The notes below the pieces were generated by a model, which searched no databases, was not told where the DNA came from, and was given only the letters and a program-made list of their open reading frames with translations. Below are positions 16,105 to 63,115 of a stretch of 64,000 nucleotides of DNA, piece by piece. A program made the position numbers and the translations under genes. The stretch comes from Manihot esculenta (Eukaryota; Streptophyta; Magnoliopsida; Malpighiales; Euphorbiaceae): assembly GCF_001659605.2 (NCBI RefSeq), contig NC_035172.2, positions 28,695,342 through 28,759,341 on the forward strand, written 5' to 3'. The first letter of the stretch is position 1; each line of letters starts with the position of its first letter.

Positions 16105-16110
16105 GCCTAG

Positions 16111-16124
16111 AGCAAGTGGGAGAT
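16111..16124 (+). other. Polypurine tract of copia-1
   Basis: GAGCAAGTGGGAGAT lies immediately before the LTR start TGTTAGTG and after the RNase H stop codon. The same tract precedes the second LTR copy at 23,178. Confidence 0.8.
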
Positions 16125-17564
16125 TGTTAGTGTATATGCCCTAGGCCATTATCTTGGACCTTTTTGTATATCGTTTTGGTTATTAATAAAAGAGGTTTTT
16201 ATCATTATTATATATTTGCATGTTACATAATAATGATTATCATACCTGGTTACTTATTATTATGTTGACAATAATAAAATATAGCTAGTATGATTATTGA
16301 TTGATAATCATGAGATGATTATGTATATGTTGATATAATTCAATAATCATAGATACTTGTTAGAGAACAAAGTATTGGATGGACCCGCATTGAGATTACT
16401 ACATGGGTTATTATCATAAGTGAATCTCAAAGTAGTTATGTCTTAATCCTTTGACTTGAGATTGTCATAGTTTCCAACATAAGGACTGTTATGTTTTGAC
16501 ATAACCAAACATTGTCTTTAATCGGACAATCATAAAGGTTATGATTGAGCATAATAGAAATTATGTAGAGAATAATGAACAATCAAGATAGGATTTGTCC
16601 CTCTCTCCGAGAGAGATATCTTCTGGGCCCCTCGATAAGTGAGACTGAAAAATGCATGGTCGTGCTCAAATGAATTGATAGTGTGATCAATATCATTTGA
16701 ATTTATCAGTCTACTTAGAGATCGATAAATCATAAGTTTGAACATTCTAAGTTTGACATTGACCATGACTTATGTTCAAACTAGATATCGTGTGACAAAG
16801 GGATTAATTCATGTTCTATTTATTAGGCTTTATCGGATTATTGATCCTCATATTAGTTAGGTAGTCATAATGTCTTGCCAGAGGCCACTTATGACTTATG
16901 GGCCTTGTGGGACTAGACCTATTGCCAATTAATGTGAGCCTATTAGATCACACACAAAAGAACGTTGTTGATGTGCTATGTCATATTAATGGGCTAAAAG
17001 CCCAAAGCTTATTAATATAATTAATAATAATAAAGTGTTATTATTATTAATCATTTATTATTATGAGATAATAATATTTAAAAGATCTGCAGTCTATCTG
17101 TAACTGTTACAGATAAAGGACTCTATCACATAAGATATTTGAGTATCTGTGAGATTGTGATAATGGGTTTTGAACACAACTCCTTTTAGGGAAAGGAGTT
17201 ATGGGAAAAATAAAAAACTGAAACATATAAATACTCCTTCTATGAATTGTGGAAGGATGATGTTAATTTTTGAGAAAAATTCAGTCTAACTATTGCAGAT
17301 TGTGGAGCACATAATCTATCCATCTTTGAGAGAGTTAGTACTCTAGAAGGATAGAAGATGTTCGTATGGATACCATAGAGGGTGTTCGTTTGAAAAAGCA
17401 GCACCATCAGTCGAACATTATATCTTCTTGACGAGACTAACAGGTTAGTTTCATATCCTTCTTGTAAATTAAACGAAGCACTCGGATTCTGGAAAAAGGA
17501 AATCAGAGAAATTTTATTTTTCCGCTGCGCCTTTGGGTTGCAATAATCTCGAAATTTCCCAACA
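16125..17564 (+). repeat. Copia-1 3' LTR (1.44 kb)
   Basis: It runs from TGTTAGTGTATATG to TTTCCCAACA, giving TGTT/AACA ends. It is AT-rich, with a likely TATA motif ATATAAATACTCC near 17,226. No equivalent 5' LTR is visible upstream of gag at 6286. A second copy lies at 23,178-24,813. Confidence 0.85.
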
Positions 17565-17653
17565 GTGTCCCCCACAACCATGTGAATGGCAGAAGGCTAA
17601 GGCTGAAGCTATTTCTTGATCTGGGATGCATCTCCTGATTACTTGGTTAGAAT
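17565..17653 (-). pseudogene. Athila-like integrase fragment, left copy
   Basis: On the minus strand this 89-bp piece encodes the integrase zinc-region motif SNQVIRRCIPDQEIASALAF, then CHSHGCGGH. It matches the right copy at 24,814-24,902, which continues into the rest of an Athila-like pol. It shows that copia-1 was inserted into an Athila-like integrase gene. Confidence 0.78.
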
Positions 17654-19947
17654 TGTAATACCCGGCTAGACTCCGGTATCGGAATTCCTACCGTCCGGTG
17701 GAATCTCGATTGTCGGAAACCTCTAGAAGGGTAAAATCATGTTTTCATAAAAATTTTTAATGTATTTTATGGTTTTAAGTAAGAAAGAAATTGGGTTTTA
17801 AATGAAAAAGACCATGGAGGCATTTCCAGGTTCGGCCGCCGAACGTGGGATAGTTTAGGGGGGCACGTTAGGCTTCCGAATGTGGCTCATGTTCGGCCGC
17901 CGAACTTCATGTTCGGCCGCCGAACATGCATGCGTTTTGGAGTCGCCTTCGGCTTCCGAAGGTGGCCTGGCTAGCCACCTATAAAAGGACCCATGGCCGA
18001 AAATGGGCGAGCTTTCTCCCCTATTTTCGGCCAACGGTGAGTCCATGCCCTCCCATGGTTGATTTTGATGATTTTTCCTCAAATCTTTCAAGTGTTAACA
18101 AGCGTTTACTTGATTTTTGAAGATTTGTGAGCTTAGAACAAGTTTTTGGAGTTTGAAGGCCCAAGGAGCTAGATCTCTCCCACCCCCGAGTTGGATCGCC
18201 TCTCCTCTCGATCTTCAAGAGGTAAGAGTAGATCCTCACCTCTTTTCATGTTTTGACTAAGTTTCTTGAAGGTTCATGGGGTAGAAATGCATGTTTAAGT
18301 TAGTTGTTTGTTGTTAGGGTAAATGTTGAGTTTATGAGTAATGTATGTTGTTTGAGTTGCTTTTTATGTTTGTGTTGGGGTTTAGGATAGTTTGAGGCCC
18401 CTATATGCTTATTTGCTTGTGTATGCATGTTGTAGAATAGCTAAATGCATGTTGGATTGGTTTGGGAGGCAAATGTGTATTGAATAGCTGACTTCTGCCA
18501 CTTTGGAAGAACTCAGGTTCGGCAGCCGAAGGGACTTTTGGCCGCCGAACCTGCCTGTGGAGCCAAGCTTTCGGCTGCCGAACCCTGCCCCCGAAAGTGG
18601 ACTTTCGACTTTGGAAGGGAGTTTCGGCCGCCGAAGGTGCCGCCAAACATGCACGAGTTTCGGATCTGGAAGGAACCTTCGGCTGCCGAAAGTGCCGTCA
18701 AAGGTGCATGACTTTCGGCTCTGGAGGGACTTTCGGCCGCCGAAAGTGCCCTGTTCAGCCTTCCTTTGCATGATTTTCTATGCATGTTTGTGATGTTTTA
18801 GGGGGTTTTTGGGGAGTAGTTTAGAGTCATGTTAGTATATGTTTGGTCCCTCATTTGCATCCACCTGTGTAGGTTCGGACCCGAGGAACCGAGGACCCCA
18901 GCAGTGAGATAGCTGCTTCAGTGTCTTGTCAGAGCTAGCCTGAGGTGAGTAGAATGGACCTTTATTTCCAAAGCAAATAAATAAAATTGAGCATGTTCAT
19001 GCATCACGAATGCCATATGATATATTAGGTTGTTTGCATTAGAATTCACGAATATGTTGCATTGCATAATATGGTGATGATGTGGATGAATGTTGGATGA
19101 TCCTTTAGCCCTCACTATGATGAGATATGATATGATGTGATATGGAAGTCCAGGTATGGCCTGCACTACGCCCCTAGCACAATGTAAGAGAAAGTCCGGG
19201 TGTGGCCTGCACTACGCCCCCGGCACGAGTGGATATGTATGATATGATATATGTAAGAGAAAGACCAGGTGTGGCCTGCACTACGCCCCTGGCATGATTG
19301 GATTATTTAGAGGGCTATAGGTGACAAGTTCATCCTTGATGTGATTTGTTTGTGATGTGATGCATTTCGTAAAAGCATGAATGTTAAATTTAATGTTTTA
19401 CTATTCTGCTCACTGGGCTCTAGTAGCTCACCCCATTCCCTTGATCCCCTAGGTTTGTAGGTACGAGGTAGTCCGGGAAGTCAACTAGAGTAGGAAGTTT
19501 TATGTATGTAATAGCTAGTAAGTGGACATGAGAAAGAATATGATGTAATGAATAGTATTGAACAGTCATGTAATGCAATGATGTTTATTGAGGTTTAGAA
19601 TTGTGCTTGACCCTAGCATGTATGGTTAATCCCTTTGCGTATACATGATCTATGTAATGTGTTAATGATGTTTATGTAAACCAAGTTTAATGTATGATAT
19701 GTTACCCCATTGGAGCATTTGATGAGGGCTCCAGTGTGGGGTTTAATGTTTATGATTATGAGTTGTGCATGCACAGGTTAAGCTTGGTGAATGAAAGAAA
19801 GAAAGTTTAAAGTTTTTATGTAAATGTTGATCATGTATGGGATTAAACAGGTATACAGGATGTATGTTAGGCTTGCTACGGGTCCCGGCGGCCTTAAGTC
19901 GATCTGGATCCTAGCGCCGGTAGCGGTCCGATTTCCGAGTCGTTACA
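17654..19947 (+). repeat. Chromovirus LTR C (2.29 kb, plus orientation)
   Basis: It starts TGTAATACCCGGCTAGACTC and ends GAGTCGTTACA. It has palindrome arrays at about 17,828-17,965 and 18,515-18,752 on either side of a TATA box at 17,978-17,988. A three-unit tandem block lies at about 19,146-19,300 (TGGCCTGCACTACGCCCC). It lacks the usual PBS: at 19,948 it jumps to the 3' part of gag. Confidence 0.87.
17978..17988 (+). promoter_or_regulatory. LTR C TATA box
   Basis: CCTATAAAAGG lies just downstream of a palindrome block, with about 325 bp of LTR before it. Confidence 0.72.
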
Positions 19948-19948
19948 G

Positions 19949-20785
19949 ATTAGCGGTCCGGTTTCGGGTTCCAAGACCCCCGGCGGGGAAAGGTTAGGCT
20001 CCTCTTCTCTGAATGCAGCAGCTTCAAGTGAAAAGAAAAAGTGGGACAGAGGCCTCAGGAAGTCCAAGAAGAACAAGTTCTGGAACAAGATCAAGTCAGG
20101 TATGGGTTTAGGAAGTGGCTCGAGCTCAGGTGCAGATAATGCAGTATGTATGAAGTGTGGGAAGCCGCACAAGGGAGTATGTCGGTTTGGGATGACAGTC
20201 TGCTTCAGATGTGGGCAGGAGGGACACATGGCACGGGAGTGTCCTAGAGCAACTTTTATGGCACAGTCCCAGCAGACAGCTTTTGGTAGTATGGCTCAGC
20301 CAGTAGCTCCAGCCGCGACTCAGGCCAGTGGCAGAGGCAGAGGGAGAAGGGCAACCTCTTCTTCAGCGGGTTTCAGGGGTGAAGGTCCATCAGCTCCAGC
20401 ACGGATCTTCACCATGACACAGCAGGAGGCAAATGCATCAAACACCGTGGTGTCAGGTAATCTCATCATTGGGTGTTCAGATGTTTATGCCTTAATGAAC
20501 CCTGGTGCATCTCATTCTTTTATTGCTCCGAGAGCCGTCGAGAGGCTGGGTTTGATGGTCTCTGGGTTAGAGTGTCCCCTATGGGTCAGTGGACCCAAGT
20601 GCGACCCATCAGTGGCAGAGTCAGTCTGCCAGTGTAGTCCAGTTTTTGTTGAGGGGAGATGCCTTTCAGCCGACCTTGTGGTTCTAGATTTGACAGATTT
20701 TGACGTCATTCTAAGGATGGATTGGCTATCTACCCATGGTGCTACCTTGGACTGTAGAGATAAGGTAGTCAAGTTCAGAGGTTAG
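19949..20785 (+). pseudogene. Chromovirus C gag C-terminus and protease, truncated
   Basis: One open frame, entered from an internal deletion, encodes a basic linker, two cysteine clusters (CMKCGKPHKGVC, then CFRCGQEGHMAREC) and a retropepsin-like domain. In this family the active site is usually D-P-G-A; here it reads NPGASHSF near 20,497, so the catalytic aspartate is replaced by asparagine, a G-to-A change. The flap-side motif DVILRMDWLSTHGA follows. The frame stops at 20,783-20,785 and element sequence runs to about 20,845, where it meets an opposed element. RT, RNase H and integrase are absent. Confidence 0.82.
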
Positions 20786-32127: not shown

Positions 32128-32136
32128 TGGATAATA
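32128..32136. repeat. MULE target-site duplication, left
   Basis: TGGATAATA, identical to 44,177-44,185. Nine bases is the characteristic Mutator duplication length. Confidence 0.93.
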
Positions 32137-32229
32137 GGGCTTTTTGCAAAATAAAGTTTAAAAAAATATATATTTCTTAAACCCTGGTTCGCGAGAAAAT
32201 ATTTCCCGGACCAGGGTGAATCGGTCCTC

Positions 32230-32402
32230 TACCGCATTTTATAAGTGCGGTAGAGCCTACCGCACTTATAAAATGCGGTAGAGAGTGATGAATTTAAAAA
32301 TAAAATTTTTTTAAATAAAAAATTTCTACCGCACTTCAAAAGTGCGGTAGAATTTTTAATAAATTTTGTTATAAAAATCTACAGCACTTGTAAAGTGCGG
32401 TA
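32230..32402. repeat. Hairpin array TACCGCACTT/AAGTGCGGTA, left outer block
   Basis: Four palindromes of about 26 bp: near 32,232, 32,260, 32,325 and 32,380. Each pairs (C)TACCGCACTT with AAGTGCGGTAG across 2-6 bases; two use CATTTTATAA variants. They lie between the element end and the RING ATG. Confidence 0.88.
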
Positions 32403-32513
32403 GGAGGGTTTATACGAGTCTCTGCCCCAGTTATACAAAAAATAATTTTTTTTTAAATAAAATTTTTTTTCCTTTTATCTTCCTCAGCTCTCTCCCTTTG
32501 CAAGACTTGTAAA

Positions 32514-33140
32514 ATGGCCTCTCAGTCTCAACTTGCTGAAGTATCTTCCGCTTTTGAGAGGATGTTGAGGCGTAGAGATCTTTCTTTATTTTTGCCCCTC
32601 ATCTTGGGCGTTACCGGCACCAACCCAGATCAAGAAAGAATAATCCTTATTAACCCTTTCACTCAAGGGATGGTGATGATTGAAGGAGCTGGGGACTTGG
32701 GTTCTCTTCTTAGAGAGTTAGCTACCAAGAATGGTCAACCTCCTGCCTCAAAGGCATCCATAGAGGCCTTGCCTAGTGTAGAGATTTCAGAAATTGGTGA
32801 TCGTGATTGTGAGTGTGTGATCTGTTTAGAGGAGTGGGAGCTTGGTGGGTTGGCCAAGGAGATGCCCTGTAACCATAGGTTTCATGCTCATTGTATAAAG
32901 AAGTGGTTGGGGATTCATGGGTCGTGCCCTGTTTGCATGTATAAGATGCCGGTTGATGAGGTGGATTTAGGCAAACAGAGGGAGGAAGAGGAAGAAGAAG
33001 AAGAAGAAGAAGGGAGAGAGAGGAGAAGATTTGAAAGAGAAATTTGGGTCGATTTTTCTTTCAACAGTAATAGGAGAAGTGAGAAATCAAAGGCTTTTTG
33101 CAAAATAAAATTAAAAAAAAAAAGTTATAAAATGCGGTAG
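32514..33140 (+). CDS. RING-H2 E3 ubiquitin ligase, MPSR1-like, in MULE left arm
   Basis: Open frame of 208 residues from an ATG in context AAAATGG. The N-terminal region (MASQSQLAEV, RDLSLFLPLILG, INPFTQGMVMIEG) resembles the plant MPSR1/At1g26800 group of cytosolic E3 ligases, which act in misfolded-protein turnover. RING-H2 zinc ligands are C101, C104, C119, H121, H124, C127, C138 and C141 (C-X2-C...CNHRFHAHC...CPVC). A poly-Glu run (about residues 157-166) follows. The last ~17 residues, from AFCKIK, are encoded by an inner copy of the MULE terminus and are not gene-derived. All ligands are present, so ligase activity is possible. Expression is unknown. Confidence 0.87.
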   Translation: MASQSQLAEVSSAFERMLRRRDLSLFLPLILGVTGTNPDQERIILINPFTQGMVMIEGAGDLGSLLRELATKNGQPPASKASIEALPSVEISEIGDRDCECVICLEEWELGGLAKEMPCNHRFHAHCIKKWLGIHGSCPVCMYKMPVDEVDLGKQREEEEEEEEEEGRERRRFEREIWVDFSFNSNRRSEKSKAFCKIKLKKKSYKMR

Positions 33141-33165
33141 AGATGCGTAAATTATAATTTTTTTT

Positions 33166-33400
33166 AAATAAAAAAAATTCTACCGCACTTTTAAAGTGCG
33201 GTAGAATTTTTAATATATTTTTTTAATAATTAAAAATCTACTAGCAGAGAGGGCAGAGACAAAACCCGTTTCTGCCCCGTGAGCAGGAGCACGCCTCCTG
33301 CCTTCTACCGTACTTGTAAAGTGCGGTAGAATCTCTGCCAGGTGCAGGGATTCCTGCACCTGGCAGAAAAAGTCCTCTACCGCACTTTAAAAGTGAGGTA
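33166..33400. repeat. Inner hairpin cluster, left
   Basis: Palindromes of several kinds. TACCGCACTT/AAGTGCGGTA types lie near 33,180, 33,305 and 33,375. GGGCAGAGAC/GTTTCTGCCC lies at about 33,258-33,282. CCAGGTGCAG/CTGCACCTGG lies at about 33,338-33,362. Similar stems occur in the right arm (43,850-43,911). Confidence 0.8.
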
Positions 33401-33853
33401 GAGGAGAGAGAATATCAAAAAGTTAAATTATTTTAGTTTATTTTAATTTTGAAAAAATGAAAATTATGCATGATTTTTAATCATTTAATTTGTTTTCTCG
33501 TAAAATAAATAGAAACATTTATATTTTAAGTTGATCATTTAATATTTTTTATTTTATTAGTTGAAATATATATATATATATTTTTTTTAATAAATAATTA
33601 TTAATTATTATATTTTTCATCATTATACATTTAACACATAATATATCTGTGCAGAAAAAGTCCTCTACCGCACTTTAAAAAGTGCGGTAGAGGAGAGAGA
33701 ATGTAAAAAAGTTAAATTATTTTAGTTTATTTTAATTTTAAAAAAATGAAAATTATGCATGATTTTTAATCATTTAATTTGTTTTCTCGTAAAATAAATA
33801 GAAACATTTATATTTTAAGTTGATTGTTTAATATTTTTTTATTTTATTAGTTG

Positions 33854-33905
<52 letters not shown>
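33366..33905 (+). repeat. Direct duplication, ~290-bp offset, ending in (TA)n
   Basis: 33,366-33,580 and 33,658-33,905 share a hairpin CTACCGCACTTT, GAGGAGAGAGAAT, GTTAAATTATTTTAGTTTA and a TA tract. The second copy has an expanded (TA)n at 33,856-33,909. Confidence 0.82.
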
Positions 33906-33912
<7 letters not shown>

Positions 33913-33925
33913 CAATAAATACATC

Positions 33926-34200
33926 CCTGCTCCCCATCTTCTTCCATCTTCTTCCCGCTCCCCATCTTCCCTGCTCCCCCGCTCCCCAGCTCCCCATCTT
34001 CCCTGCTCCCCATCTTCTTCCCGCTCCCCATCTTATACCCTGCCATCTTCCCCTTCTTCCCTGCTCCACCTTCCTGCCACCTTGTTCCCTGCTCCACCTT
34101 CCTGCCACCTTGTTCCCTGCTCCACCTTCCCTCCCTGCTCCATATTTCTTTTTTTTCCAAGTTTCGCTGCTTCTCTTTTCTTTTAAATTTCTCTCTACCC
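33926..34200 (+). repeat. Pyrimidine-rich tract with short tandem units
   Basis: Runs of CCCTGCTCC, CATCTTCTTCC and a 28-bp unit (CTTCCTGCCACCTTGTTCCC and on to TGCTCCAC) are repeated. ORFs on both strands here are low-complexity artefacts. Confidence 0.75.
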
Positions 34201-34729
34201 ATCTGAATCTATCTAAAAAAAATTTTTCAATATTTTCTCTCTGCACAACCCATCTCACTAAATTTTCAACAAAAAAGGTACGTGTTATATTAATTTTTTT
34301 ATGAAATTTAGATAAATAAAAATTTATTAATAAATGTAAATGTTATATTTTGTAGTTTTTTCTATTCGGATACAGCCTTCGTGGACACGAGAGATTTGGG
34401 ATTGATTTTCATACAAGTAAGTAATTAAATATTATTTATAAAAATATGATATATTTTATTTATTTAATTAATTAGTAAGATATTTATATTGTTGAAAAAA
34501 TTATATTTTGTATGTAATTAATAGTAAAAAATGTATAGTTGTATTAATTTAAAATTATTAAAAGTAATATAAGAAAATGAGAAAAAAAATTCCTGATTTA
34601 TAGTAATGTGATAAATAAAAAAGAAATGTATGAAAAAATAGGGTGGTTTGTGGGGAAATAAATTTATATTATTCATAATAAATATGAAAATTTAATTTTT
34701 TAAAAAATTTAATTTACATATGTTGTTGT
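34201..34729 (+). other. AT-rich spacer before the tandem array
   Basis: No gene seen. A possible 5' non-coding exon with splice-like AAAGGTACGTGT near 34,275 and GTAAGTAATT near 34,420 could belong to a transcript of the transposase, but this is weak. Confidence 0.35.
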
Positions 34730-36456
34730 GAGTAAAATTGTAGAAATTAAGGTAGTATTAAAGTAGGAAAAAATTTGTAAATGTAAATGTTGTTGTAAAT
34801 TTTTTGTGTAGGGAAAATATTAGAAAATTAGAAAAAAATTATTTAGTTAGATTTATTTTATTTAAAAAATTAATGAAATAAAAAGTGGTGAAATAAATTT
34901 ATAATATTCATAATTAATCTGAAAATGTAGTTATTTAAAAAATTTAATATATATAGGGTCTTGGACAAAAAAATATAGGGATTAAAATATGAAAAATTTA
35001 TAAATGTAAATTTTGTTGTGAATTTTCTGTGTATAGAAAATATTAGGAAATGGATAAAAAATTATTTAGTTAGATATATTTGATTTAAAATTTTAAAGTA
35101 ATATTTTGTGAGGAAATAAATTTATATTATTTATAATAAATATGAAATTTTAGTAATTTAAAAATTAATTTAATATACATGTTGTTGTGATTAAAATTGT
35201 AGGGATTAAGGTAGTATTAAAGTGAGAAAAATTTATAATTGTAAATGTTGGTGGTAAATTTTTTGTTTTGAGAAAATATTAGGAAATTAGAAAAAGAAAT
35301 ATTTAGTTAGATATATTTGATTTAAAATTTTAAAGTAATATTTTGTAAGGAAATAAATTATTGATCATTTATAATAAATATGAAAATGTAGTTATTTAAG
35401 AAATTTAATATATATAGGGTGTTGGACAAAAAAAATATAGGGATTAAAATACGAAAAATTTATAAATGTAAATTTTGTTGTGAATTTTCTATGTATAGAA
35501 AATATTAGGAAATGGATAAAAAATTATTTAGTTAGATATATTTGATTTAAAATTTTAAAGTAATATTTTGTGAGGAAATAAATTTATATTATTTATAATA
35601 AATATGAAATTTTAGTATTTTAAAAATTAATTTAATATACATAGGTTTTTGTGACTAAAATTATAGGGATTAAGATAGTATTAAAGTGAGAAAAATTTAT
35701 AATTGTAAATGTTGGTTGTAAATTTTTTGTTTTGAGAAAATATTAGGAAATTAGAAACAGAAATATTTAGTTAGATATATTTGATTTAAAATTTTAAAAT
35801 AATATTTTGTGAGGAAATAAATTTATATTATTTATAATAAATATGAAATTTTAGTATTTTAAAAATTAATTTAATATATATAGGTTGTTGTGACTAAAAT
35901 CGTAGAGATTAAGATAGTATTAAAGTGGGAAAATTTTATAATTATAAATGTTGGTTGTAAATTTTTTGTTTTGAGAAAATATTAGGAAATTAGAAAAAAA
36001 ATATTTAGTTAGATATATTTGATTTAAAATTTTAAAGTAATATTTTGTAAGGAAATAAATTATTGATCATTTATAATAAATATGAAAATGTAGTTATTTA
36101 AGAAATTTAATATATATAGGGTGTTGAACAAAAAAAATATAGGGATTAAAATATGAAAAATTTATAAATGTAAATTTTGTTGTGAATTTTCTGTGTATAG
36201 AAAATATTAGGAAATGGATAAAAAATTATTTAGTTAGATATATTTGATTTAAAATTTTAAATTAATATTTTGTGAGGAAATAAATTTATATTATTTATAA
36301 TAAATATGAAATTTTAGTATTTTAAAAATTAATTTAATATACATAGGTTTTTGTGACTAAAATTATAGGGATTAAGATAGTATTAAAGTGAGAAAAATTT
36401 ATAATTGTAAATGTTGGTTGTAAATTTTTTGTTTTGAGAAAATATTAGGAAATGAG
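34730..36456 (+). repeat. AT-rich tandem array, ~225-240-bp units, in front of the transposase
   Basis: The anchor GAAAATATTAGGAAAT or close variants recur near 34,814, 35,036, 35,272, 35,499, 35,736, 35,974, 36,198 and 36,438, that is, 222-240 bp apart. Two unit types are seen: A (GTGTATAGAAAATATT, then GGATAAAAAATTATTT) and B (TTTGTTTTGAGAAAATATT, then TTAGAAA). They partly alternate. The last unit ends about 115 bp before the likely transposase ATG. Confidence 0.85.
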
Positions 36457-36570
36457 TGATTTTTTTATATAGCAAATATGGATGATGTTATGATATATAT
36501 GTATTTAGTTTTTTTTTTTATTCATAATTTATTCTACTATTATTGTCTACTAGGTGAATTAGGAAGAAAA

Positions 36571-39207
36571 ATGACTACTCCGCGTTATGGTACTGTGTAC
36601 TGGGACGGGCACATAGTTAATATTGACATTGGATATGATTATGTTGGTGGACAGTCTAGAATGTTTCGTATCGAAAAGAAATTGAATTATGAAGAATTAG
36701 TGATTAAAATTGTTCGTGCCATGAAATTGTCAACGCATGAAGATATGATAATAAGGATTATTTTTAGACAACCGATGTTGGATAATGGTATCATTAAATA
36801 TGGATTAGCACAACTAAGTGATGACGAAGATGTGGACATGATGTTTGACTACATATTGACAATCAGGCCAGTAGATTCAATTGTATTATATGTAGATATT
36901 TTATCTCGTCATCATAGAACAGAAGATGGAGGCGTTGGGCCTTCAACTAGTTGTCCAATCGTTATGGAGGGTGAAGGTGAAGACAATCTCCGGGATGATA
37001 ATTGTCCGGTTGTGGGGATAGAAACGTGTCATGAATTACAACACAATGCACAGGATGTTGGCCAGGGTGAAAATGATGATGATACTGATTTTCTTGATGA
37101 TTTAGATACAGATGGAGATGATCCTTGGATTGACGAGGAAGATGACATTCCAGGTGTTCAGTTTAATGATGGAGATGATCATGATATAAATTCTTCAATG
37201 TGTTTTAATAGTGGATATGAAAATCCTATTAGACCATTGATATTTCCACCTCCGTATTCTGAAATCGACTCCGATGTAATGAGAGTTGATCCTTATGCAA
37301 AAGATCCATCGAATCTGTTCTGGGATAAGTCGAAAGAATTTTCCGTAGGAATGATATTCAGATCTCGAGAGGCTGTCATCGCTGCTGCTAAAGAGTATCA
37401 TATGCTGCGACATCACCAATTTTGTTATGATGAAACTAAGAGTAGGACTTATTCAATCAAGTGTAAGGACAAATTATCTGGTTGTCAATGGCACCTTCGT
37501 GCATCCCGTAAAGAAAATGCTGATGTTTGGAAGATAACAAGATATAACGGTCCGCATACATGTAGAAACGCAGGTATTAGTAAAAATCATGGTCACCTTG
37601 ATTCTAGATTTATTTGTGCATTTATCTTACCCATGATCGAACAACAGCCAGATATGAAAGTTGGCACTCTTCAGGCTGAGATCAAAGATAAGGTTGGATA
37701 TGAACCGTCCTATAAAAAAACATAGATGGGAAAACAATTTGCAATTGAAAAGATTTTTGGTGGATGGGAGGAATCATATGAGAGATTGCGTAAGTTCATG
37801 CATGCTATTGTGAATTACAATCCCGATACAGTTGTCGCAATTGAAGATGATCCACACTGGATTGAAGGTCGTTTAGATGGGAACGTTAGAGTGTTTGATA
37901 GAATGTTTTGGGCATTTCAACAATCAATTGAAGGATTCAAGTTTTGTAGGCCAGTCATCTTTGTTGATGGAACTTTTTTATATGGGAAATATAGTGGTTG
38001 TATTCTTTGTGCAACTGGGCTTGATGAAAATAATATGATTTTTCCATTAGCATTTGCATTAGTTGAAAAAGAGGATAGTGACAATTGGGGATGGTTCATG
38101 GATTGTCTTCGATTATATGTTACCGACAGAGAAGAATTATGTGTTATATCCGACAGACACATTGGGATTAAAAAGGCAATGCAAAAGGATTGGTGGCAGC
38201 CCCCATAAGCCAATCATCGATATTGCATTCGACATATATTAAGCAATTACAATACAAAATTTAAGAATACCGATATTAAGGAAGCTTTGCGCACAGCAGG
38301 TCAGTGATTCAATTTAAATATAAACAATTCATTCGTTTATGTGTCCTTAATTATTGCTCAATATATATACATTAAGTACTTGTATTTTTACCTTTCAGCT
38401 AATCAAAATCAGAAGCGAAAATTTTATGATGCCATGAATAAGATAAGGGAAGTCAGTCCTGAAATATTTGAGTGGGCCCTTAAAATACCTTTAGAAACAT
38501 GGACACGGTCACATGATGGAGGAAAAAGGTATGGATCCATGACAACAAATACAATTGAATCTGTCAATGGGATGTTGAAGGGGTTTCGCGCATTACCTGT
38601 CACAGCTATGGTTGAAAAAATATTCTACCAATGTGCTAACTACTTTGACATACGTCGCACGACGTATTTGAATCAAATGCAAATGGGGCACACTTTTACG
38701 CATGCATGTGCAGAAGTAATTAGAAAGAACGAGATGAAAGTAGCAAGACATCGGGTGACACGATTTAGTAACGAAACTTTAGTTTTTGAAGTTCGTACCA
38801 GTGGCACCGGGAATAAGCAAGTTGTTAAACTAATAGAAGGTACATGCACTTGTGGTAAGTTTCAAGAGATGTGAATCCCATGTTCACACGCCATAGCAGC
38901 TTGTCTGTCGAAATCCATGGATTATGATCAATATGTTGATACATACTACACATTGGAACGTACTTTAAAATGTTATGGCAGTATGTTCAATCCATTGGGT
39001 CATTCTGATTACTGGCCAGAACCAAACGGTAAACCTCTAATTCCTGATATGCAAAGAATTAGAAAAAAGGGTTGACCAAGAAGTAGCAGAATTCAAAACG
39101 AGATGGACTGGAGGGCATCAAAGGTTTCTTCAACTTCTAAAAACCATTGTACTATATGTGGAAAGTCTAGTCATAATAAACAAACATGTATCGTCAGACA
39201 TTGTTGA
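36571..39207 (+). pseudogene. MuDR-type MULE transposase with four nonsense codons and one intron
   Basis: The likely start is ATG at 36,571 (MTTPRYGTVYWDGHIV); the frame is open further up to 36,478, but that part is hydrophobic and probably non-coding. Domains: MuDR N-terminal region, acidic linker, zinc-binding/DNA-binding region (about 37,330-37,600), then the MULE catalytic domain with DGTF near 37,965, SDRH near 38,150 and NTIESVN near 38,558. A SWIM finger (CTCGKF...CSH, about 38,845-38,895) and a CCHC knuckle (CTICGKSSHNKQTC, about 39,150) follow. An intron 38,300-38,398 (GT-AG) keeps frame. Stops are TAG 37,723, TAA 38,206, TGA 38,872 and one TGA near 39,075. Otherwise the frame is well kept, so it died recently. 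Confidence 0.88.
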
Positions 39208-39883
39208 ACTGATTTATATGACTGTAATTTGATAATTTCTCTATATTGGATGGATAATAAAGCACTGCTAATTAAAATACATATTATTTTTAAGGGTGTT
39301 GATGATAATGATTTTGTAAAATATTTGCAATGTGTTTTGACATCTTAGTTGTTAGTGATTAAAATATATAACATAAGCATAGTACAATTTAGAAAATGCA
39401 CCAGAGTACCAATCCGATGTGCCACTATTGGATGATAATTATAACAATTGAAAAAAATAGTAGAATGGTTTGTAAAATGTTAAAGTGGAAAAAGATATTT
39501 AGTATCTTTCTTTTGTTAAGTAAGAAAAAATTATTGATCATAATATATTTATTGTATATAACATTGTAATACATAGCACATACAGTCCGCATATTAAAAT
39601 TATAACACATCTAATTGTAAATAACATAACAATACAATTAGTTGCCACCACAAGTTTTGAAATGTGACAGTAGATAATAGTTACTCTTCATCAGACATCT
39701 CTTCATCATATGCATAATTTGGATTATTCATTATATTTCTTATCTCAGCTTCTATGAGCTCATAATTTGAATTATTCATTGCATGTGACTTCTCTGATAA
39801 AATTGCATGTTACTCGTACTTATGTTATTAATGAAAATTATCATCAATTTATGACATATTTATTCACATTTTATTTGACAGAT
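39208..39883. other. Spacer between transposase and PMD gene
   Basis: AT-rich, no convincing gene. It should hold the transposase 3' end and the PMD promoter. A short open frame at 39,425-39,610 (minus) is of the kind expected by chance. Confidence 0.4.
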
Positions 39884-42296
39884 ATGACGGGCAGATAAAA
39901 TTATCGTGATTACACGAGTCCTGGCCCTCTTGACCATTCTTTATTGACACAACAGCAGTCTCATAGATCACAGTCGATTTGGAATGATGAGATTGAAAAT
40001 GAGCCACTACTTTGTAGGCAATCAGCGAGTGTTTTGAAGCAGGATTTTCACCCCCGTATTGAAGCTTATCTCAGAATTGCTGGATTCTATGGTGCTGTCA
40101 GATTAGGCTACTTTTCATTGGATCATCATTTAATTACATCACTGGTTGAGAGATGGCGTCCTGAAACACACACATTTATGATGCCAGTGGGAGAGTGTAC
40201 AATTACTCTCCAGGACATCGGTGTTATTTCCGGCCTACCTATTGATGGAGATGCTGTTGTAGGTAATTCTATTATCAATTGGATGATGTACTGTCAAGAT
40301 ACTTTAGGACTCGTACCTCCCGCTAATATTATGCGGGGTAGCTCGTTGCCATTAAGTTGGTTAGTCGAAAATTTTAATGAGCTACCAGATGATGCTGATG
40401 AAGAAGTGGTCCAGAGATATGCCCGTGCTTACATTCTGCGGATCATTGGTGGTTCCTTATTTACTGATAGGAATCCTAGTAGGGTGAACCTAATGTTTCT
40501 GCCTCTAATTGCTAATTTACATAGAGCAAGCATGTATAGTTGGGGTTCAGCTTGTCTTGCCTGGTTATATCGAGAACTTTGTCGGGCCATTGATCCGAGC
40601 GTGTCTCAATTAGGTGGAGCTCTACACATCCTGCAGATATGGGCATGGGAACGATTTATTTCAATATCACCATCTATAAATATACGAGACCCACATAATG
40701 ATGCTCCATTGGGAAGTCGGTTAGTATGTTATGCTTATTATGACATTATTATGATTTGCATGTTACGCATTTATATTAAATTCTTGTATTTTTTAATAAT
40801 ATTTTCAGGTGGAGTAATGCACGACGTATCACTCAAGTCGTAACACATGTCTTGCTAGAAATACGTTATAAATTTGACAGAATGGGTGACCCAGAGGTAT
40901 AATACGAATTATGGAATGTACCTCGATTACTATGATATTTCTAACAAATTTCTAATAAATATATATATTTTTTTCATTTCAGATGGTATGGGAGCCATAT
41001 TCCGATGAACTCCTTGCATCATTGCCATTATATTGCACGCAAGGACGTGACATTTGGAGAGCAGTGGTTCCCTTGATATGCTTCCACGTGGTAGAATGGC
41101 ATCAACCTGATAGAGTGTTGCGCCAATTCGGGATGCAACAATCAATACCACATCCACCACGCTAGCCAGCTGATCTTCATAACACATCTCTATTATCATC
41201 CGACAGTAATTGGATTACAATTCATGCACATTGGATTGCCATTTGGGAAGATAGATGGCAAAGGTTGGTTGAAGCAGCACCATTACATGGGCCACTACAT
41301 TATCATTCCGAGTACCTCGAATGGTATAGATGAGTTTCTCGTCGATGGATATCGCATCGTGGTGCAGCTATTGGCACTGTGGTAATATTTAATTATTCAT
41401 TACATTTACATATGTTTATTTTTTTTAAACATATCAATGTTTAATTTTTGTTTTGCCAACAGGAGGATGGTATCGAGAATATACATTTAATTAATCGACA
41501 GTTTCCTAATCCGGGCACAGATCTTATTGAAAGACAAACAACAACAATGTTCTATGCCATGGAAGAAGAGAAACGAATAACAGAGATACCTCCACCACAG
41601 CCAGCACCTCGGGCGCAACCTATGCCAGATGACCCTGAAGAGCCTATTGACCCGCTGAGGAGGCCTAGGCGTAGACGTAGCTCTCGCCAACAGGCTGATC
41701 CTGATGTACATACTACTGTCCCGGCAAATGTCATCATTCCGGCACCCGTTTCATTCCACACTCATCGATCATTTGGTGAGATTGGACAGTTTTTAGCAGG
41801 ACCTAGTGTTCCACAAGAAGGTGGATCACAATATACTACGCGGACACATGGTAGTTATATTCCACCACCTCATATAACCCCAACATAGTGGTCCTTCCAG
41901 CAGGTTGGTATTCAAGATAATCCATTTTAGATGCAGACCTCGATAGGTAGTACCTTTGATGCTTTTGCACGACATAATAGCTCCATTAATGCATTTTCGG
42001 CTAGACATTCTGTGGATATTCCTTCAACTAGCCTAGGCACACAACCATTCTCTAGCAATTTTGTACAGTACACATCGGGCCAGCAGTACTCCACTTTTGC
42101 ATCTGATGATATCTATTTACTATCGCATTATACTGCAACACGAGATCCGAGCTCGGTAGCTCCTTATCTTAATATTAATCCTGCTGCTGCTGAAGGTGAG
42201 GGTACAAGTGGTGACCGTCGGCCTTATAGAACTCGACGTCCACATGAACAAAGGGGACGTCCATGTGGCACGGGAGGACATTTGGGACATGATTAG
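39884..42296 (+). pseudogene. Plant mobile domain (PMD) gene within the MULE, four exons
   Basis: The frame starts ATG at 39,884 (MTGR, then TAA at 39,896). The PMD core follows: HPRIEAYLRIAGFYGAVRLG, LVERWRPETHTFMMPVGECT, LQDIGVISGLPIDGD and LGGALHILQIWAWERF. Three GT-AG introns keep frame: 40,720-40,808, 40,897-40,982 and 41,382-41,462. Further stops are TAG after IPHPPR (41,163), TGA after LEWYR (about 41,330), and two near 41,886 and 41,928. The C-terminal tail is Pro- and Arg-rich. PMD proteins (MAIN/MAIL family) occur both as host silencing factors and inside transposons; this one is the transposon type. It is read in the same direction as the transposase. Confidence 0.85.
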
Positions 42297-42837
42297 CATT
42301 ATTTTTTTTATTTTATCATTTGTAATTATATTATTTTATTTTTATTACATTCTATAATTTTAATTATTTATATGTTTTTTTTTAAATTTTTATGATTCTT
42401 AAATTTTTTTTTATTTATTTATAAATATAATTCTAATAAAAATAATAAATTCTATAAATAAATATAAAATATATGATATTATATTTAAATAAATATAATT
42501 ATAATGTTATAAATATTTAATTTTAATTATTAAAATAAATTTTTATATGATCATTATTATATTAAATTTTAATTATATTAAATAATTAATATTAATATAA
42601 TTTTTATAATTATCTATAAATTTTATATATAAATAAATATAATTAATATAATATATTTAATATAAACTCACCATTACCGCACTTTAAAAGTGCGGTAATA
42701 CGTAAAGTGAGAAATTGATATTATACAAAAGTGCGGTAATACGTAAATTAAAAATTAATTTAATTATTGAAAATTACAAAAATTTTTAATTATTACAAAA
42801 TTTAATATTTTACCGCACTTTTAATTTGCGGTAGAAT
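42297..42837. other. AT-rich MULE spacer with hairpins
   Basis: Nearly pure A/T with no gene. Hairpins TTACCGCACTTT/AAAGTGCGGTAA lie near 42,674, and half sites near 42,726 and 42,809. Confidence 0.6.
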
Positions 42838-42958
42838 TTTAATTATTAAAAATAAATTTAAATAAAATTTTACCGCACTTCACAAGTGCGGTAGAGTTTT
42901 TTTTATTTAAAAAAAATTATAATTTACGTTCAACGCATCTCTACCGCATTTTACAACT

Positions 42959-43612
42959 TTATTTTTTTTTAAATTTTATTTTGCAAAAAGCCCTTAATTC
43001 CTCACTTCTCCTATTACTGTTGAAAGAAAAACCGACCCAAATTTCTCTTTCAAATCTTCTCCTCTCTCTCCGTTCTTCTTCTTCTTCTTCTTCTTCTTCT
43101 TCTTCTTCTTCTTCTTCTTCTTCTTCTTCTTCTTCTTCTTCCTCCCTCTGTTTGCCTAAATCCACCTCATCAACATGCATCGTATACCTGCAAACAGGGC
43201 ACGACCCATGAATCTCCAACCACTTATTTATACAATGAGCATGAAACCTATGGTTACAGGGCATCTCCTTGGCCAACCCACCAAGCTCCCACTCCTCTAA
43301 ACAGATCACACACTCACAATCACGATCACCAATTTCTGAAATCTCTACACTAGGCAAGGCCTCTATGGATGCCTTTGAGGCAGGAGGTTGACCATTCTTG
43401 GTAGCTAACTCTCTAAGAAGAGAACCCAAGTCCCCAGCTCCTTCAATCATCACCATCCCTTGAGTGAAAGGGTTAATAAGGATTATTCTTTCTTGATCTG
43501 GGTTGGTGCCGGTAACGCCCAAGATGAGGGGCAAAAACAAAGAAAGATCTCTACGCCTCAACATCCTCTCAAAAGCGGAAGATACTTCAGCAAGTTGAGA
43601 CTGAGAGGCCAT
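42959..43612 (-). CDS. RING-H2 E3 ubiquitin ligase, MPSR1-like, in MULE right arm
   Basis: Open frame of 217 residues on the minus strand from ATG at 43,612. The first 128 residues appear identical to the left-arm protein. All eight RING-H2 ligands are kept (CVIC, CNHRFHAHC, CPVC). Between the RING and the poly-Glu run it differs at a few positions: INKWLEIHG against IKKWLGIHG, and CRYTMHVDE against CMYKMPVDE. The acidic run is much longer, about 27 Glu against 10, from a (TTC)n expansion. As on the left, the C-terminus AFCKIKFKKK is encoded by an inner MULE terminus. The matching upstream region (CTCAGCTCTCTCCC) is kept, so the arm copied the gene with its 5' flank. Confidence 0.87.
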   Translation of the reverse strand: MASQSQLAEVSSAFERMLRRRDLSLFLPLILGVTGTNPDQERIILINPFTQGMVMIEGAGDLGSLLRELATKNGQPPASKASIEALPSVEISEIGDRDCECVICLEEWELGGLAKEMPCNHRFHAHCINKWLEIHGSCPVCRYTMHVDEVDLGKQREEEEEEEEEEEEEEEEEEEEEEEERRERRRFEREIWVGFSFNSNRRSEELRAFCKIKFKKK

Positions 43613-43719
43613 TTTACAAGTCTTGCAAAGGGAGAGAGCTGAGGAAGATAAAAGGAAAAAAAAATTATTTAAAAAAAATTTATTTTTTGTATAACTGGGG
43701 CAGAGACTCGTATAAACCC

Positions 43720-44092
43720 TCCTACCGCACTTTATAAGTGCGGTAGATTTTTATAAAAAAATTTATTAAAAATTCTACTGCACTTTTTAAGTGCGGTAAA
43801 ATTGTTTTTTTAAAAAAAAAATTTATTTTTTTTATTACCTGGTGACGGGGCAGAGACGAGACCCATCTCTGCCCTTTTTGTTAGGTGCAGAAATTCCTGC
43901 ACCTGGCAATCTTACTGCACTTTACAAGTGCGGTAAATTTTTATAAAAAAAATTATTAAAAATTCTACCGCACTTCAAAAGTGCAGTAGAATTTTTTTTA
44001 TTTAAAAAAATTTTATTTTTAAATTCATCACTCTCTACCGCATTTTATAAGTGCGGTAGGCTCTACCGCACTTATAAAATGCGGTAGAGGAC
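43720..44092. repeat. Hairpin array TACCGCACTT/AAGTGCGGTA, right outer block
   Basis: Six palindromes lie near 43,722, 43,776, 43,912, 43,966, 44,034 and 44,062, some decayed to CTACTGCA or GCAGTAG. The extra block also holds GGGGCAGAGA/TCTCTGCCC and AGGTGCAG/CTGCACCT stems. Confidence 0.86.
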
Positions 44093-44176
44093 CGATTCAC
44101 CCTGGTCCGGAAAATATTTTCTCGCGAACCAGGGTTTAAGAAATATTTTTTTTTAACTTTATTTTGCAAAAAGCCC

Positions 44177-44185
44177 TGGATAATA
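44177..44185. repeat. MULE target-site duplication, right
   Basis: TGGATAATA, matching 32,128-32,136. Confidence 0.93.
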
Positions 44186-57534: not shown

Positions 57535-58386
57535 ATGGCTGCTTGTCATATCCGTTCAATCAGTTTACCGTCCAGATCTCATCCTCTAATTGTTAATATT
57601 GAGGAGCAGTTGTACAAATTGAAGGCATCTCAGTCCTCATCAATGAGCTACAAATTGAATGGCCTAAAGAATTTGTTTGAGTGCGTTGATGATTTGCTTC
57701 AAATGCCACTGGCACAGCAGACTCTCTCCCATGAAAGGCAAAGCCAATGTGTAGAAAATGCGTTGAATGTATCTCTGGAACTGTTGGATTTGTGTGATTC
57801 CACAAGAGATCTTTTCTCACAGATGAAGGAATGTGTTCAAGAACTTGAATTATCTCTTCGTAGAAGAAAAGGCAAAGACTCTGGAATCACAACTGAAGTT
57901 GAGGCTTACATGGTATCTAGAAAGAAGTTGCGCAAAGTTATATGCAAATATCTGAGAAATTTGAAGAGAAAGGAGAGGAATTGCACAACAGAAGCCTTGG
58001 ACAATAACTCCAACTTCACAAATGTGATTAGCATATTAACAAGAGTCCAAGAAATTAGTCTTGTGGAGTTCGAGTCAATCTTATCTTTCATCTCTCAGTC
58101 AAAGGCAAAATCAAGGTCCTTTGGCTGGTCTATCATCTCAAAAGCATTGCAATCTAAGCGCATATCATGTGAAGTGGAAACAAAAGTAAATGAAGTAGAG
58201 AAGGTTGATGCTGAATTGCTTAACCTGAAGTCAAGCAAAGACGTCAGTATTTCACAACTTCAAAGCCTTCTTAAAGGATTGGAGGCTTTGGGATCAAGCA
58301 TTCAAGAAGCTGAGGAGGATCTAGACTGCATATATAGGCGATTGGTGAAAACTAGAGTATCCCTTCTCAACATCCTGGATCATTAG
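57535..58386 (+). CDS. DUF241 domain protein, intact copy
   Basis: 283 residues from ATG at 57,535 (MAACHIRSISLPSRSHPL). An upstream in-frame ATG at 57,460 exists, but it lies just 7 bp past the TATA box, and the homologous start in the other copy is MAA, so 57,535 is preferred. The DUF241 domain fills almost the whole protein: the N-terminal SLPSRSHP motif, LDLCDSTRDLFSQMKECVQE, LRRRKGKDSGITTEVEAYMV, and C-terminal helices with LQSLLKGLEALGSSIQEAEE and RVSLLNILDH. It is predicted helical and probably coiled-coil, with no signal peptide or membrane span. The gene is intronless. Function is unknown; the family is plant-specific and often tandemly duplicated. Confidence 0.9.
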   Translation: MAACHIRSISLPSRSHPLIVNIEEQLYKLKASQSSSMSYKLNGLKNLFECVDDLLQMPLAQQTLSHERQSQCVENALNVSLELLDLCDSTRDLFSQMKECVQELELSLRRRKGKDSGITTEVEAYMVSRKKLRKVICKYLRNLKRKERNCTTEALDNNSNFTNVISILTRVQEISLVEFESILSFISQSKAKSRSFGWSIISKALQSKRISCEVETKVNEVEKVDAELLNLKSSKDVSISQLQSLLKGLEALGSSIQEAEEDLDCIYRRLVKTRVSLLNILDH

Positions 58387-60095: not shown

Positions 60096-61500
60096 ATCTT
60101 AAGGATAAAGGCTGAAATTACTTCTCCTAACAATACTTCCATTACTGGACCTGTTGATCCTTCTGCCACTGGCATTCCAAGTGGTGTTCCTACTGCTTTG
60201 ATGCAACCTGCTATGACAATGTCCAAGCCATTCCCAAATGTCTCCAAAATTGAATAGTTCAATGGTGACAATTTCAAACGCTGGCAGGAACGTGTATTTT
60301 CAGTTCTTGATATGCATGGAGTTGCTTTTGCTCTCACTGATGCGAAACCTGTAGAAACTTCCAACAAACAATGGGAATTATGGGTTCATGCTAATAAGAT
60401 GGTGGATGATAAAGATATAAAGGCACAAATCAATGAATACCACAAATTGATTGAGGACCTGAAATCAGAAAATATAACACTTCAAGAGGAGCTTGTTGCT
60501 GATTTGCTGATTGAAAAATTACCAACTTCGTGGAGCGACTACAAGCAACAACTCAAGCATAAACATAAGCAGCTGTCCCTTTCTGAGCTTATCACTCATA
60601 TCATCATAGAAGATACAAACAAGAAAGAGGTCAAGAAAGCTAAGGGGAAAGAGATCGCTGCCAACGCCAACTTAATCCAAGACAAGCCACACTACCAAAA
60701 CAAAAGGTATGAAAAGAAATATGATTATAAACTAAAAATTAATAATCCTATTTTTAAGAAAAAAGGTAATTGTTTTGTGTGTGGCAAGTCAGGCCATCAT
60801 GCACCTCAATGCAGGAAAAGAATGGGGAGAAATGACAATCCTGCTAAGCCAAAGGCAAATTTGGTGGAAACAGATAACATAATTGCTGCGGTCATTTCTC
60901 ATGCCAATCTTGTGGCTGATGTGAATGAATGGTTCATAGACTCAGGTGCTACGAGGCACATTTGTGCAAATAGAAGTGCTTTTTCATCCTACACTCAAGC
61001 TAGTGCAGGAGAAGATTCTATATTTCTTGGTGACTCAAGGACTACACAAGTTCTTGAAAAAGGCAAAGTGCTTCTTCGTCTCACATCTGACAAATTTTTG
61101 AAACTGAATGAGGTGCTACATGTCCCTGAAATTCGAACTAATCTGATTTCTGTTGCTCTGCTTGGTAAAAATGGAGTGAAAGTTGCATTTGAATTATGGA
61201 AGGGTTATCCTCCTAACTTAAAATATTTAAAAGTGTGGGGGTGTTTAGCCAAAGTTATGCTTCCTGAACCAAAGAAAAGAAAAATTGGTGCAAAAACTTC
61301 TGATTGTTTATTTATTGGTTATGCTAATTGTAGTGCTGCATATAGATTTCTTGTGCTCAAAAGTGATATTTTGGATTGTAACACTATTATTGAAACTAAA
61401 AATGCTGAGTTTTTTTAAAATATTTTTCCTTTGATAAATAAAGTTGTTTCTAATGCATCTGTTAATGAAAATATAAATGAAAGTGAAGTTGAAGAGTTAA
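60096..61500 (+). pseudogene. Copia-3 gag and protease with internal deletions
   Basis: Reading from about 60,108, the expected start codon is AAG where ATG would fit, and an in-frame TAG lies near 60,250. The main open part (60,312-61,418, 368 residues) encodes a gag core shortened after WVHANK, a CCHC knuckle (CFVCGKSGHHAPQC, about 60,774-60,815), the protease active site DSGATRHIC (about 60,940-60,966) and FLGDSRTTQVLEKGKV. Near 61,192 it jumps past the whole integrase core to the integrase C-terminal region (NLKYLKVWGCLAKVMLPEPK). It is therefore a deletion derivative lacking catalytic integrase. Confidence 0.84.
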
Positions 61501-61529
61501 GAATATCAAAAAGACAAAGGAAAGAAAAA

Positions 61530-63115
61530 TAATTTGGAAATGATTTTTATGCTTATCTTTTGGAAGATGATCCTTTAACTTTTTCAGATGCAATTTCTTC
61601 TTCTAATACATTATTTTGGAAAGAAGCTATTAAAGTTGAAATTGATTCTATTTTACAAAATAATACTTGGAAACTTGTTGATCCACCACATGGAGCAAAA
61701 CCAATTGGTTGCAAATGGATTTTCAAAAAGAAATTAAATCTTGATGGTTTAATTAATAAATACAAAGCTAGACTTGTTGCAAAAGGTTTTACTCAAAAAC
61801 AAAATATTGACTATTTTGATACATATGCTCCTGTTACTAGAATTTCTTTAATTAGAATTTTAATTGCTTTAGCTTCTATTTACAAACTTTATATCCATCA
61901 GATGGATGTAAAAACTGCATTTTTAAATGGTGATTTGGAAGACGAGATCTACATGGTACAACCTGAAGGTTGTGTTGTTTTAGGCCAAGAAAATAAAGTA
62001 TGTAAATTGCTTAAGTCTTTATATGGTTTAAAACAAGCACCAAAACAATGGCATGAAAAATTTGACCAAGTTTTGTTAAGTAATGGTTTTTCTTCTATTG
62101 AGGTTGATAAATGCGTTTATACAAAACTTATTGGAAATGATTGTGTAATTATATGCTTATATGTGGATGATATGCTCATTTTTTGTTCATGTCTTGATAT
62201 AGTTCAAGAAACAAAACAATTTTTATCTTCTAAATTTGAAATGAAAGACATGGGAGAAGCTAAAGTAATTTTGGGTGTGAAAATTGTACGAAATGATAAT
62301 GGGTTAATGTTGACTCAAGAACATTATGTTGAAAAACTTCTAAAGAAATTTGAGAATTTTGATGTGAAACCTGTAAACACTCCATTTGATGCTAACAGTC
62401 AGTTAAAGAAAAATGTTGGAGATGCTGTATCCCAGTCTAAATATGCTCAAATTATTGGAAGTTTAATTCATTTGATGAATTTTACTCGACCAGATATAGC
62501 TTACGCAGTGTGTAGACTAAGCAGGTACACTCAAAGTCCTAACCATGATCATTGGAATGCTTTAGTATGTCTAATGAAATATTTGAGAGGTACCATAAAT
62601 TATGGTATTTTATATAGTGGATTTCCCGCTGTGCTAGAAGGGTATAGCGATGCAAATTGGATTTCAGACTCATATGAGATCAAATCCACTAGTGGTTATA
62701 TTTTCACCCTAAGTGGTGGAGCAATATCGTGGAAATCAGCAAAACAAACTGTTATTGCTAGATCAACCATGGAATTAGAGTTTATTGCTCTAGATTTGAC
62801 TGGTAATGAGGCCGAGTGGTTGAAAAACTTCTTGGCAGGCATTCCATTAGGAATGAAACCAACACCTTATTCATTGTGATTGCCAAGCTGCAATAGCCAT
62901 TGCAAAAAATAAAACCTTTAATGGTAAAAATAGGCACATTCGGTTGAGACATAATGTGGTAAAGCAGCTGCTAAAAGATGGAGTTATATCTATTGATTAT
63001 GTGAAGTCAAAAGTGAATTTGACCAATCCTCTGACTAAACCCTTGGGAAAGAAATTAATAAACGAAACATCGAGGGGTATGGGACTACAACCTGTTGGAG
63101 GAAGTCAACAATGAT
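61530..63115 (+). pseudogene. Copia-3 reverse transcriptase and RNase H
   Basis: Open 439-residue frame 61,560-62,879: [57 protein letters not shown], and the YVDDMLIF catalytic motif (about 62,161). RNase H follows, with SDANWI and [10 protein letters not shown] in its core. A frameshift at about 62,870 separates the last RNase H part (CQAAIAIAKN, then NPLTKPLGKK) running to a stop near 63,115. The RT domain itself looks intact. The element is followed at 63,122 by a chromovirus LTR, so its own 3' LTR is not seen. Confidence 0.86.

Follow-up and report, generated by a model that had tools for sequence, protein, structure and literature searches.

Positions 32137-44176 of a 64,000-nucleotide stretch of cassava (Manihot esculenta) DNA (C12:28695342-28759341, on contig NC_035172.2 of assembly GCF_001659605.2; hereafter the window) are occupied by a Mutator-like element (MULE) whose two inverted arms each contain an open RING-H2 gene. 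Our analysis indicates that this tandem-TIR MULE, so called for the external and internal terminal inverted repeats (TIRs) at both ends, probably took up a host gene lying outside its old end. Read from the outside inwards, each arm consists of an outer TIR, a segment of the host gene MPSR1 running from a T-run in the 5' untranslated region (UTR) to the motif GAATCAA near codon 199, and an inner TIR. We denote the left and right arm copies of this C12 element as 12L and 12R, and those of a second armed element on C14 as 14L and 14R. The joint between the donor GAATCAA and the TIR terminus is present in all four copies, 12L and 14R having a different base at the first TIR position, and the four also have in common a 27-bp in-frame deletion that is absent from the likely donor on C5 and from a paralog on C1, which points to their descent from a single capture. 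The two elements are bordered by different perfect 9-bp target-site duplications (TSDs), which shows that the armed structure was inserted at two sites.

Structure of the C12 element

The element begins with the terminus GGGCTTTTTGCAAAATAAA at 32137, the inverted copy of which lies at 44158-44176, and the terminus recurs in each arm on its inner side (33091 and 42993). The arms are inverted repeats of 575 nt at 97% identity and 161 nt at 98%, among others. An initial annotation of the window, made by a model from the sequence alone, had described a perfect terminal inversion flanked by a 9-bp TSD, and both GGGCTTTTTGCAAAATAAA and the TSD TGGATAATA are indeed present at both ends. Besides the long TIRs and a TSD within the MULE range of 7-12 bp (likewise CCCATACAA in the C14 element), the interior holds the MULE transposase domain (PF10551, 6e-16) and the plant mobile domain (PMD; PF10536, 2.5e-37) that had been reported there, while DBD_Tnp_Mut falls just under its cut-off (24.3 bits against 25). 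In-frame stops interrupt the transposase frame, so the element has no intact transposase of its own. The features of the element, in window coordinates with strand where one applies, are as follows.

32128-32136: left 9-bp TSD TGGATAATA
32137-32462, plus: left outer TIR, lacking about 180-190 bp relative to the right arm (inner limit approximate, in a T-run)
32463-33090, plus: captured MPSR1 segment of the left arm, from the T-run in the 5' UTR to about donor codon 199
32514-33140, plus: left RING-H2 open reading frame (ORF), 208 aa, its tail translated from the inner TIR
33091-33225, plus: left inner TIR, beginning at its own terminus with the first base changed (inner limit approximate)
34647-36454: tandem repeat inside the element, unit about 462 bp (or 239 bp)
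36478-38874, plus: MULE transposase remnant with in-frame stops, the PF10551 stretch at about 37954-38193
40178-40843, plus: PMD ORF
42850-42993, minus: right inner TIR, terminus at 42993
42959-43612, minus: right RING-H2 ORF, 217 aa, with an expanded poly-Glu tract and replacements at 138, 142, 153 and 155 (donor numbering)
42994-43665, minus: captured MPSR1 segment of the right arm (outer limit approximate)
43666-44176, minus: right outer TIR (inner limit approximate)
44177-44185: right 9-bp TSD TGGATAATA

At each end of the element the external and internal TIRs resemble one another over 100 bp or more, the listed pairs having similarities of 0.77-0.86 over 173-184 aligned columns, and the TSD lies outside the external TIR with none at the internal one, as is the case in tandem-TIR MULEs. 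A smaller MULE nested in a larger one was considered and rejected, since the inner TIRs are bordered by inverted gene copies with no direct repeat and not by a TSD. In having host gene sequence between its TIRs and a donor elsewhere (on C5) the element resembles Pack-MULEs, but such elements are non-autonomous and devoid of transposase sequence, whereas the C12 copy has a transposase remnant.

Short palindromes of the form CTACCGCACTT...AAGTGCGGTAG are frequent at 32243-33687 and 42677-44073, that is in the outer TIRs, the inner TIRs and just inside them, and 24 of the 25 CCGCACTT motifs in the window (both strands counted) lie inside the C12 element. These palindromes and motifs may be candidate sites of transposase binding or silencing.

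The captured gene and its likely donor

Both RING ORFs of the C12 element are open and match PF13639 (1.5e-12 left, 1.5e-13 right), and all eight zinc Cys/His ligands are present in 12L, 12R and 14R, 14L having lost one (H130R). The open RING genes with eight ligands in opposite arms of the initial annotation are in this way verified, as is the identity of residues 1-128 between 12L and 12R, where the DNA differs at one synonymous base. A search of solved structures gave matches only to RING domains of other proteins.

The search for an MPSR1-like donor that the annotation had proposed led to an intronless MPSR1 gene at C5:9577395-9578060 with a full frame of 222 aa. The DNA of 12L is 93% identical to this likely donor, and at the protein level the four arms reach 94-95% identity to it over residues 1-200. 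A host MPSR1 segment has accordingly become part of both arms, as had been claimed of an E3 ligase gene, but it is not the whole gene that was envisaged: the upstream donor DNA, the last ~23 codons with the stop, and 27 internal bp are missing, and the reading frames run past the gene joint into the inner TIR. Three features, namely the inner terminus copies, the missing donor C-terminus, and the substitution in 12L of Met for the Arg that follows the final zinc Cys (a residue kept by 12R and both C14 copies), are additions to the earlier description. In 12R the poly-Glu (GAA) tract of the ORF at 42959-43612 is 39 bp longer than in the other three arms.

The names RING-type E3 or MPSR1 have been given to two cassava database entries that correspond to transposon arms: P0002 matches 14L, and P0003 has the six private replacements of 14R, but differs in its last residues. 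These annotations should be read with this in mind.

A second armed element and RING-less relatives

A search of the cassava genome with the donor protein (E up to 1e-10; 150 of 243 candidates scored) gave at least 40 matches. Among those listed, six exceed 70% identity, these being the C5 donor (100%), the four arms (94-95%, two on C12 and two on C14) and the C1 paralog (73%), and the other 34 have at most 52%. The second element, at C14:14172250-14205369, is likewise built of tandem TIRs with a RING gene in each arm and lies within a TSD of different sequence (CCCATACAA). It answers the earlier call to look for other RING-armed elements, and a one-off capture is ruled out by it. The C14 element is ~33 kb long owing to long stretches without a C12 counterpart, and none of the internal blocks that it has in common with the C12 element covers the transposase or the PMD.

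For elements with this terminus the genome gives a lower bound of 199 matches (40 of 195 candidates scored). None of the nine TIR-bearing loci compared (L015-L023) has a RING tag or more than one terminus at an end, and eight of them have a perfect 9-10-bp TSD as read by eye, L021 being the exception. Two of these, L015 (C7, 3.6 kb) and L019 (C1, 4.4 kb), are complete RING-less relatives with perfect 9-bp TSDs and internal sequence in common with the window element. A coding relative on C11 has a transposase 97% identical to that of the window element, and its left end carries one TIR, which aligns to the window's inner TIR. The tandem repeat of the C12 element (~462-bp unit, 3.8-3.9 copies) also matches the RING-less relatives L019 and L060. 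In L060 (C8), itself a coding relative, the outer terminus at 2721-2739 differs in its first bases (AGACTTTTTGCAAAATAAA), possibly through mutation.

Origin of the gene-bearing arms

A 3' joint lying at the TIR terminus is the expected outcome of a MULE insertion into the gene, and the T-run at the 5' joint looks like a product of end joining or template switching. In the scenario that we favour, a single-TIR MULE would first have inserted near codon 199 of an MPSR1 copy, leaving the gene abutting its terminus. A related upstream MULE end would then have been joined at T-runs to the 5' UTR and have become the new terminus, giving a product composed of TIR, gene and whole MULE. The symmetry of the arms requires copying between them, and in a third step repair or gene conversion would have placed the same block on the opposite end. 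The armed elements inserted at their two sites with the common 27-bp deletion and the chimeric 3' end, and the counts given below support a last phase in which the coding sequence would have evolved largely free of selection for activity as a ligase, with the arms of the C12 copy homogenised in places. The best match of the left inner TIRs is the C11 relative (0.87-0.89), and that of the outer 12L TIR is L020b and C7 (0.85), a weak hint that outer and inner TIRs may come from two source elements. The full frame of the C5 donor and the single terminus at each end of L015 and L019 also count in favour of the scenario.

An unlikely competitor is capture during gap repair, whereby template switching would have copied MPSR1 and then a TIR from unlinked templates into one arm, with no MULE ever residing in MPSR1. 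The T-run at the 5' joint resembles microhomology, and microhomology has been reported at the breakpoints of animal Pack-TIR elements (PMC8277862). The C5 donor, moreover, has neither an insertion nor a footprint at the joint position, and no TIR terminus (up to 3 mismatches) was found in the 6 kb around it. The 3' joint speaks for the other side: it follows directly from transposase insertion and, as we argue without computing it, would rarely arise by random switching.

Possible exchange between the arms

The arms of the C12 element have an identical run of 311 bp (33 mismatches over 1084 columns, P = 0.0003, an optimistic value, since a uniform rate is presupposed and the inner TIR, which varies more, is among the columns), which makes their fully independent evolution doubtful. 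Over their first 435 bp the arms differ at 2 of 435 positions in C12 versus 12 of 435 in C14 (p = 0.012). Conversion from arm to arm is plausible in the C12 copy from these sequence comparisons, and would be local at most: arm divergence is 2.0-3.0% within an element versus 1.7-4.0% between elements, and this likeness does not support concerted evolution of whole arms. The initial annotation had suggested gene conversion between the arms, and the suggestion is plausible for this part of C12, whereas elsewhere the arms are no closer within an element than between elements.

Selection on the arm genes

To the four arm copies we assigned 22 terminal-branch changes by hand, omitting the poly-Glu tract and one ambiguous adjacent codon (retained in the pairwise dN/dS figures). 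The ratio of replacement (N) to synonymous (S) changes is 16:6, which fits neutrality (P 0.44-1.0 for kappa 1-4) and gives no sign of purifying selection over the whole frame; the omega of 0.29 between donor and paralog is rejected for these branches (P 0.04-0.006), the arms being more replacement-rich. The dN/dS comparison that had been suggested as a check for selection yields 1.0 for 12L-12R, 0.6-1.15 for the arms versus the donor, and 0.33-1.06 over all arm pairs.

Conservation was scored on 116 homologues (the best 120 of 378 matches minus the four cassava arm copies). Replacements private to an arm affect sites of ordinary conservation (mean 0.64 versus 0.67 over all sites), whereas donor/paralog differences fall at variable ones (0.24, P = 0.0007). 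All four arm copies have replaced at least one near-invariant residue, within the RING or directly behind it: R151M in 12L (Arg in 114 of 115 relatives), P155H, just after the RING, in 12R (Pro in all 116), the zinc ligand change H130R in 14L (His in all 115), and in 14R both E115K (104 Glu and 12 Asp among 116) and P127L (Pro in 112 of 115). The Arg following the last zinc Cys is at what we take to be the linchpin position. A role for the linchpin Arg is described together with its variability among natural E3s (PMC12326332), so that R151M lowers the expected activity of 12L without proving its loss. The E115K of 14R appears to occupy the position of E118K in the Arabidopsis ssm136 mutant, as judged from the RING limits of 113-154 in PMC12639119.

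That both arms keep functional E3 ligases which benefit the element, one of the options raised in the initial annotation, is in our judgement very improbable. The frames are open in all four copies, the zinc ligands are complete in three of them, and the natural variability of the linchpin (PMC12326332) means that its loss in 12L need not abolish activity. Open frames, which had been taken as a sign of benefit, say little by themselves, for the probability of no stop is ~0.25 with ~28 changes and a 4.9% stop chance each (stops only, indels excluded). The overall N:S is neutral, and R151M, P155H, H130R, and E115K with P127L place a near-invariant replacement in every copy, all of which tells against a benefit from the ligase. 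By these counts the arm copies overall fit neutral evolution and look more like hitchhikers than working enzymes.

Several observations weigh against an origin by uptake from outside the old end followed by neutral drift. The 12R inner TIR is closest to L017a (0.82) and not to C11 (0.79), so the two-source argument fails for some ends, and the right end of the C11 coding relative was not found. We saw no surviving intermediate, be it a three-TIR element or an MPSR1 allele with a MULE, and the order of the steps is one that we infer. Informative sites in the outer TIR and RING are few (three '12|14', one 'L|R' and two 'cross'), which leaves the arm history unsettled. Some arm pairs have a dN/dS far below 1 (12L-14L, 0.33), and the RING differs less between the elements than the outer TIR and UTR do (26/1161 versus 44/921, p = 0.002), though not less than the internal blocks (61/1933, p = 0.15). 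Finally, the N-terminal 100 codons have 3N:5S (omega ~0.2, P 0.02-0.03) versus 13N:1S in the 83 codons of the RING and C-terminus (Fisher p = 0.011). This unevenness along the gene, unexpected under plain neutrality, is a lead drawn from a small sample and a post hoc question.

It is on this unevenness that a further explanation is built, according to which the arms are kept as RING-dead decoys whose substrate-side N-terminus is retained and whose catalytic RING is lost, so that host MPSR1 is blocked. The functional donor/paralog pair shows the opposite distribution (28.5N:21.5S in the N-terminus, 4N:4S in the 42 RING codons), the near-invariant replacements in all four copies are as expected, and a RING-less MPSR1 construct served as a decoy in Arabidopsis (PMC12639119). 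We nevertheless consider decoys improbable. Only 22 changes are available, and the best split of N and S, after the first five changes (0N:5S versus 16N:1S, permutation P = 0.0002), lies inside the N-terminal part rather than at the RING; the replacement excess in the RING and C-terminus is not significant by itself (P 0.09-0.24). Inclusion of the stem changes gives p = 0.030, and collapsing the clustered 12R changes to one gives p = 0.041.

The inverted gene arms might instead yield double-stranded RNA directed against both the donor MPSR1 and the element, silencing them in the manner of Mu killer, an idea to which we also assign little probability. Per arm, 258-399 of 619-661 21-mers are identical to the donor, with longest runs of 82-196 nt. 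For Mu killer, in which mudrA is partially duplicated in inverted orientation, a hairpin RNA has been proposed as the agent (PMC3440606), and captured sequences can serve as small interfering RNA (siRNA) reservoirs against donor genes (PMC13317346). The gene arms, however, lie ~9.9 kb apart in C12 and ~31 kb apart in C14, so that long read-through would be required. Although speculative, and in our view a long shot, one may combine these ideas into an element that spreads RING-dead MPSR1 decoys or inverted-repeat silencing RNA and thereby dampens host MPSR1, with selection for the N-terminus and against the RING in all four copies.

Other features of the window

Outside the element, a complete-looking BPS1-family frame (PF03087, 2.7e-77) lies at 57535-58386, flanked by retroelement fragments. 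Copia- and gypsy-type fragments (gag, RVT_2, integrase, a weak chromodomain and protease) occupy 6421-20785 and 60312-62879.

Implications and comparison with known systems

The route by which Pack-MULEs gain their genes is, according to the literature, not understood (PMC3310237; PMC8277862), and the cassava elements may offer a snapshot of a MULE taking up a gene from outside its own end, with the likely donor, two sibling elements, RING-less relatives and the joints together in one genome. In Arabidopsis the donor family has roles in the quality control of proteins and in the turnover of NLRs (PMC12639119), and given these roles a decoy or siRNA effect on MPSR1 would, if true, be consequential. 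MPSR1/SNIPER2 (At1g26800) belongs to the same family as the C5 donor (222 aa) and the arms, the arm copies differing from it in their missing C-terminus and altered RING residues.

As in Pack-MULEs, a host gene piece lies between MULE TIRs, the donor survives, and there is more than one copy with distinct TSDs. Unlike in Pack-MULEs, capture apparently took place from outside the old terminus, the gene is present in two inverted copies, and the C12 element retains a transposase remnant. Neighbouring ends that enclose host DNA are also found in the tandem-array capture of Pack-CACTA elements (PMC13317346), and in P-element end bypass flanking DNA is taken along and a new end used as terminus (PMC8277862); the latter paper calls end bypass incompatible with Pack-MULEs, their donors being unlinked. 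The cassava case differs from both in concerning a MULE, in having one joint at a TIR terminus, and in the copy on the other arm.

The Ulp1 protease acts on SUMO. Kaonashi and Ulp1-carrying non-TIR MULEs (VANDAL) resemble the cassava elements in bearing a domain of a protein-modification pathway, but their capture is described as ancient and strongly conserved in eudicots (PMC13317346), whereas the cassava capture was seen in one genome and is near neutral.

Within the open-licence literature on Pack-MULEs and tandem TIRs, cassava MULEs, gene fragments in extended TIRs, E3 capture and Manihot MPSR1, no description of this element was found in the titles or abstract openings listed, which is weak evidence of absence. 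The closest parallels are the tandem-TIR MULEs of tomato and Arabidopsis (Ferguson & Jiang 2012, PMC3310237), which have external and internal TIRs at both ends with a TSD only outside. Those multi-TIR elements are mostly non-autonomous, whereas the C12 element has transposase and PMD remnants. One tandem-TIR type, PM-ZIBP, likewise carries a gene fragment and was amplified, but its fragment is treated as part of the internal region, that of the C12 and C14 elements lying between the outer and inner TIR of both arms. Symmetric tandem-TIR elements are argued to amplify better than those with a one-sided extra TIR (PMC3310237). As the same paper already states that acquired sequence can integrate into extended TIRs, the cassava element is a variant of tandem-TIR, gene-carrying MULEs.

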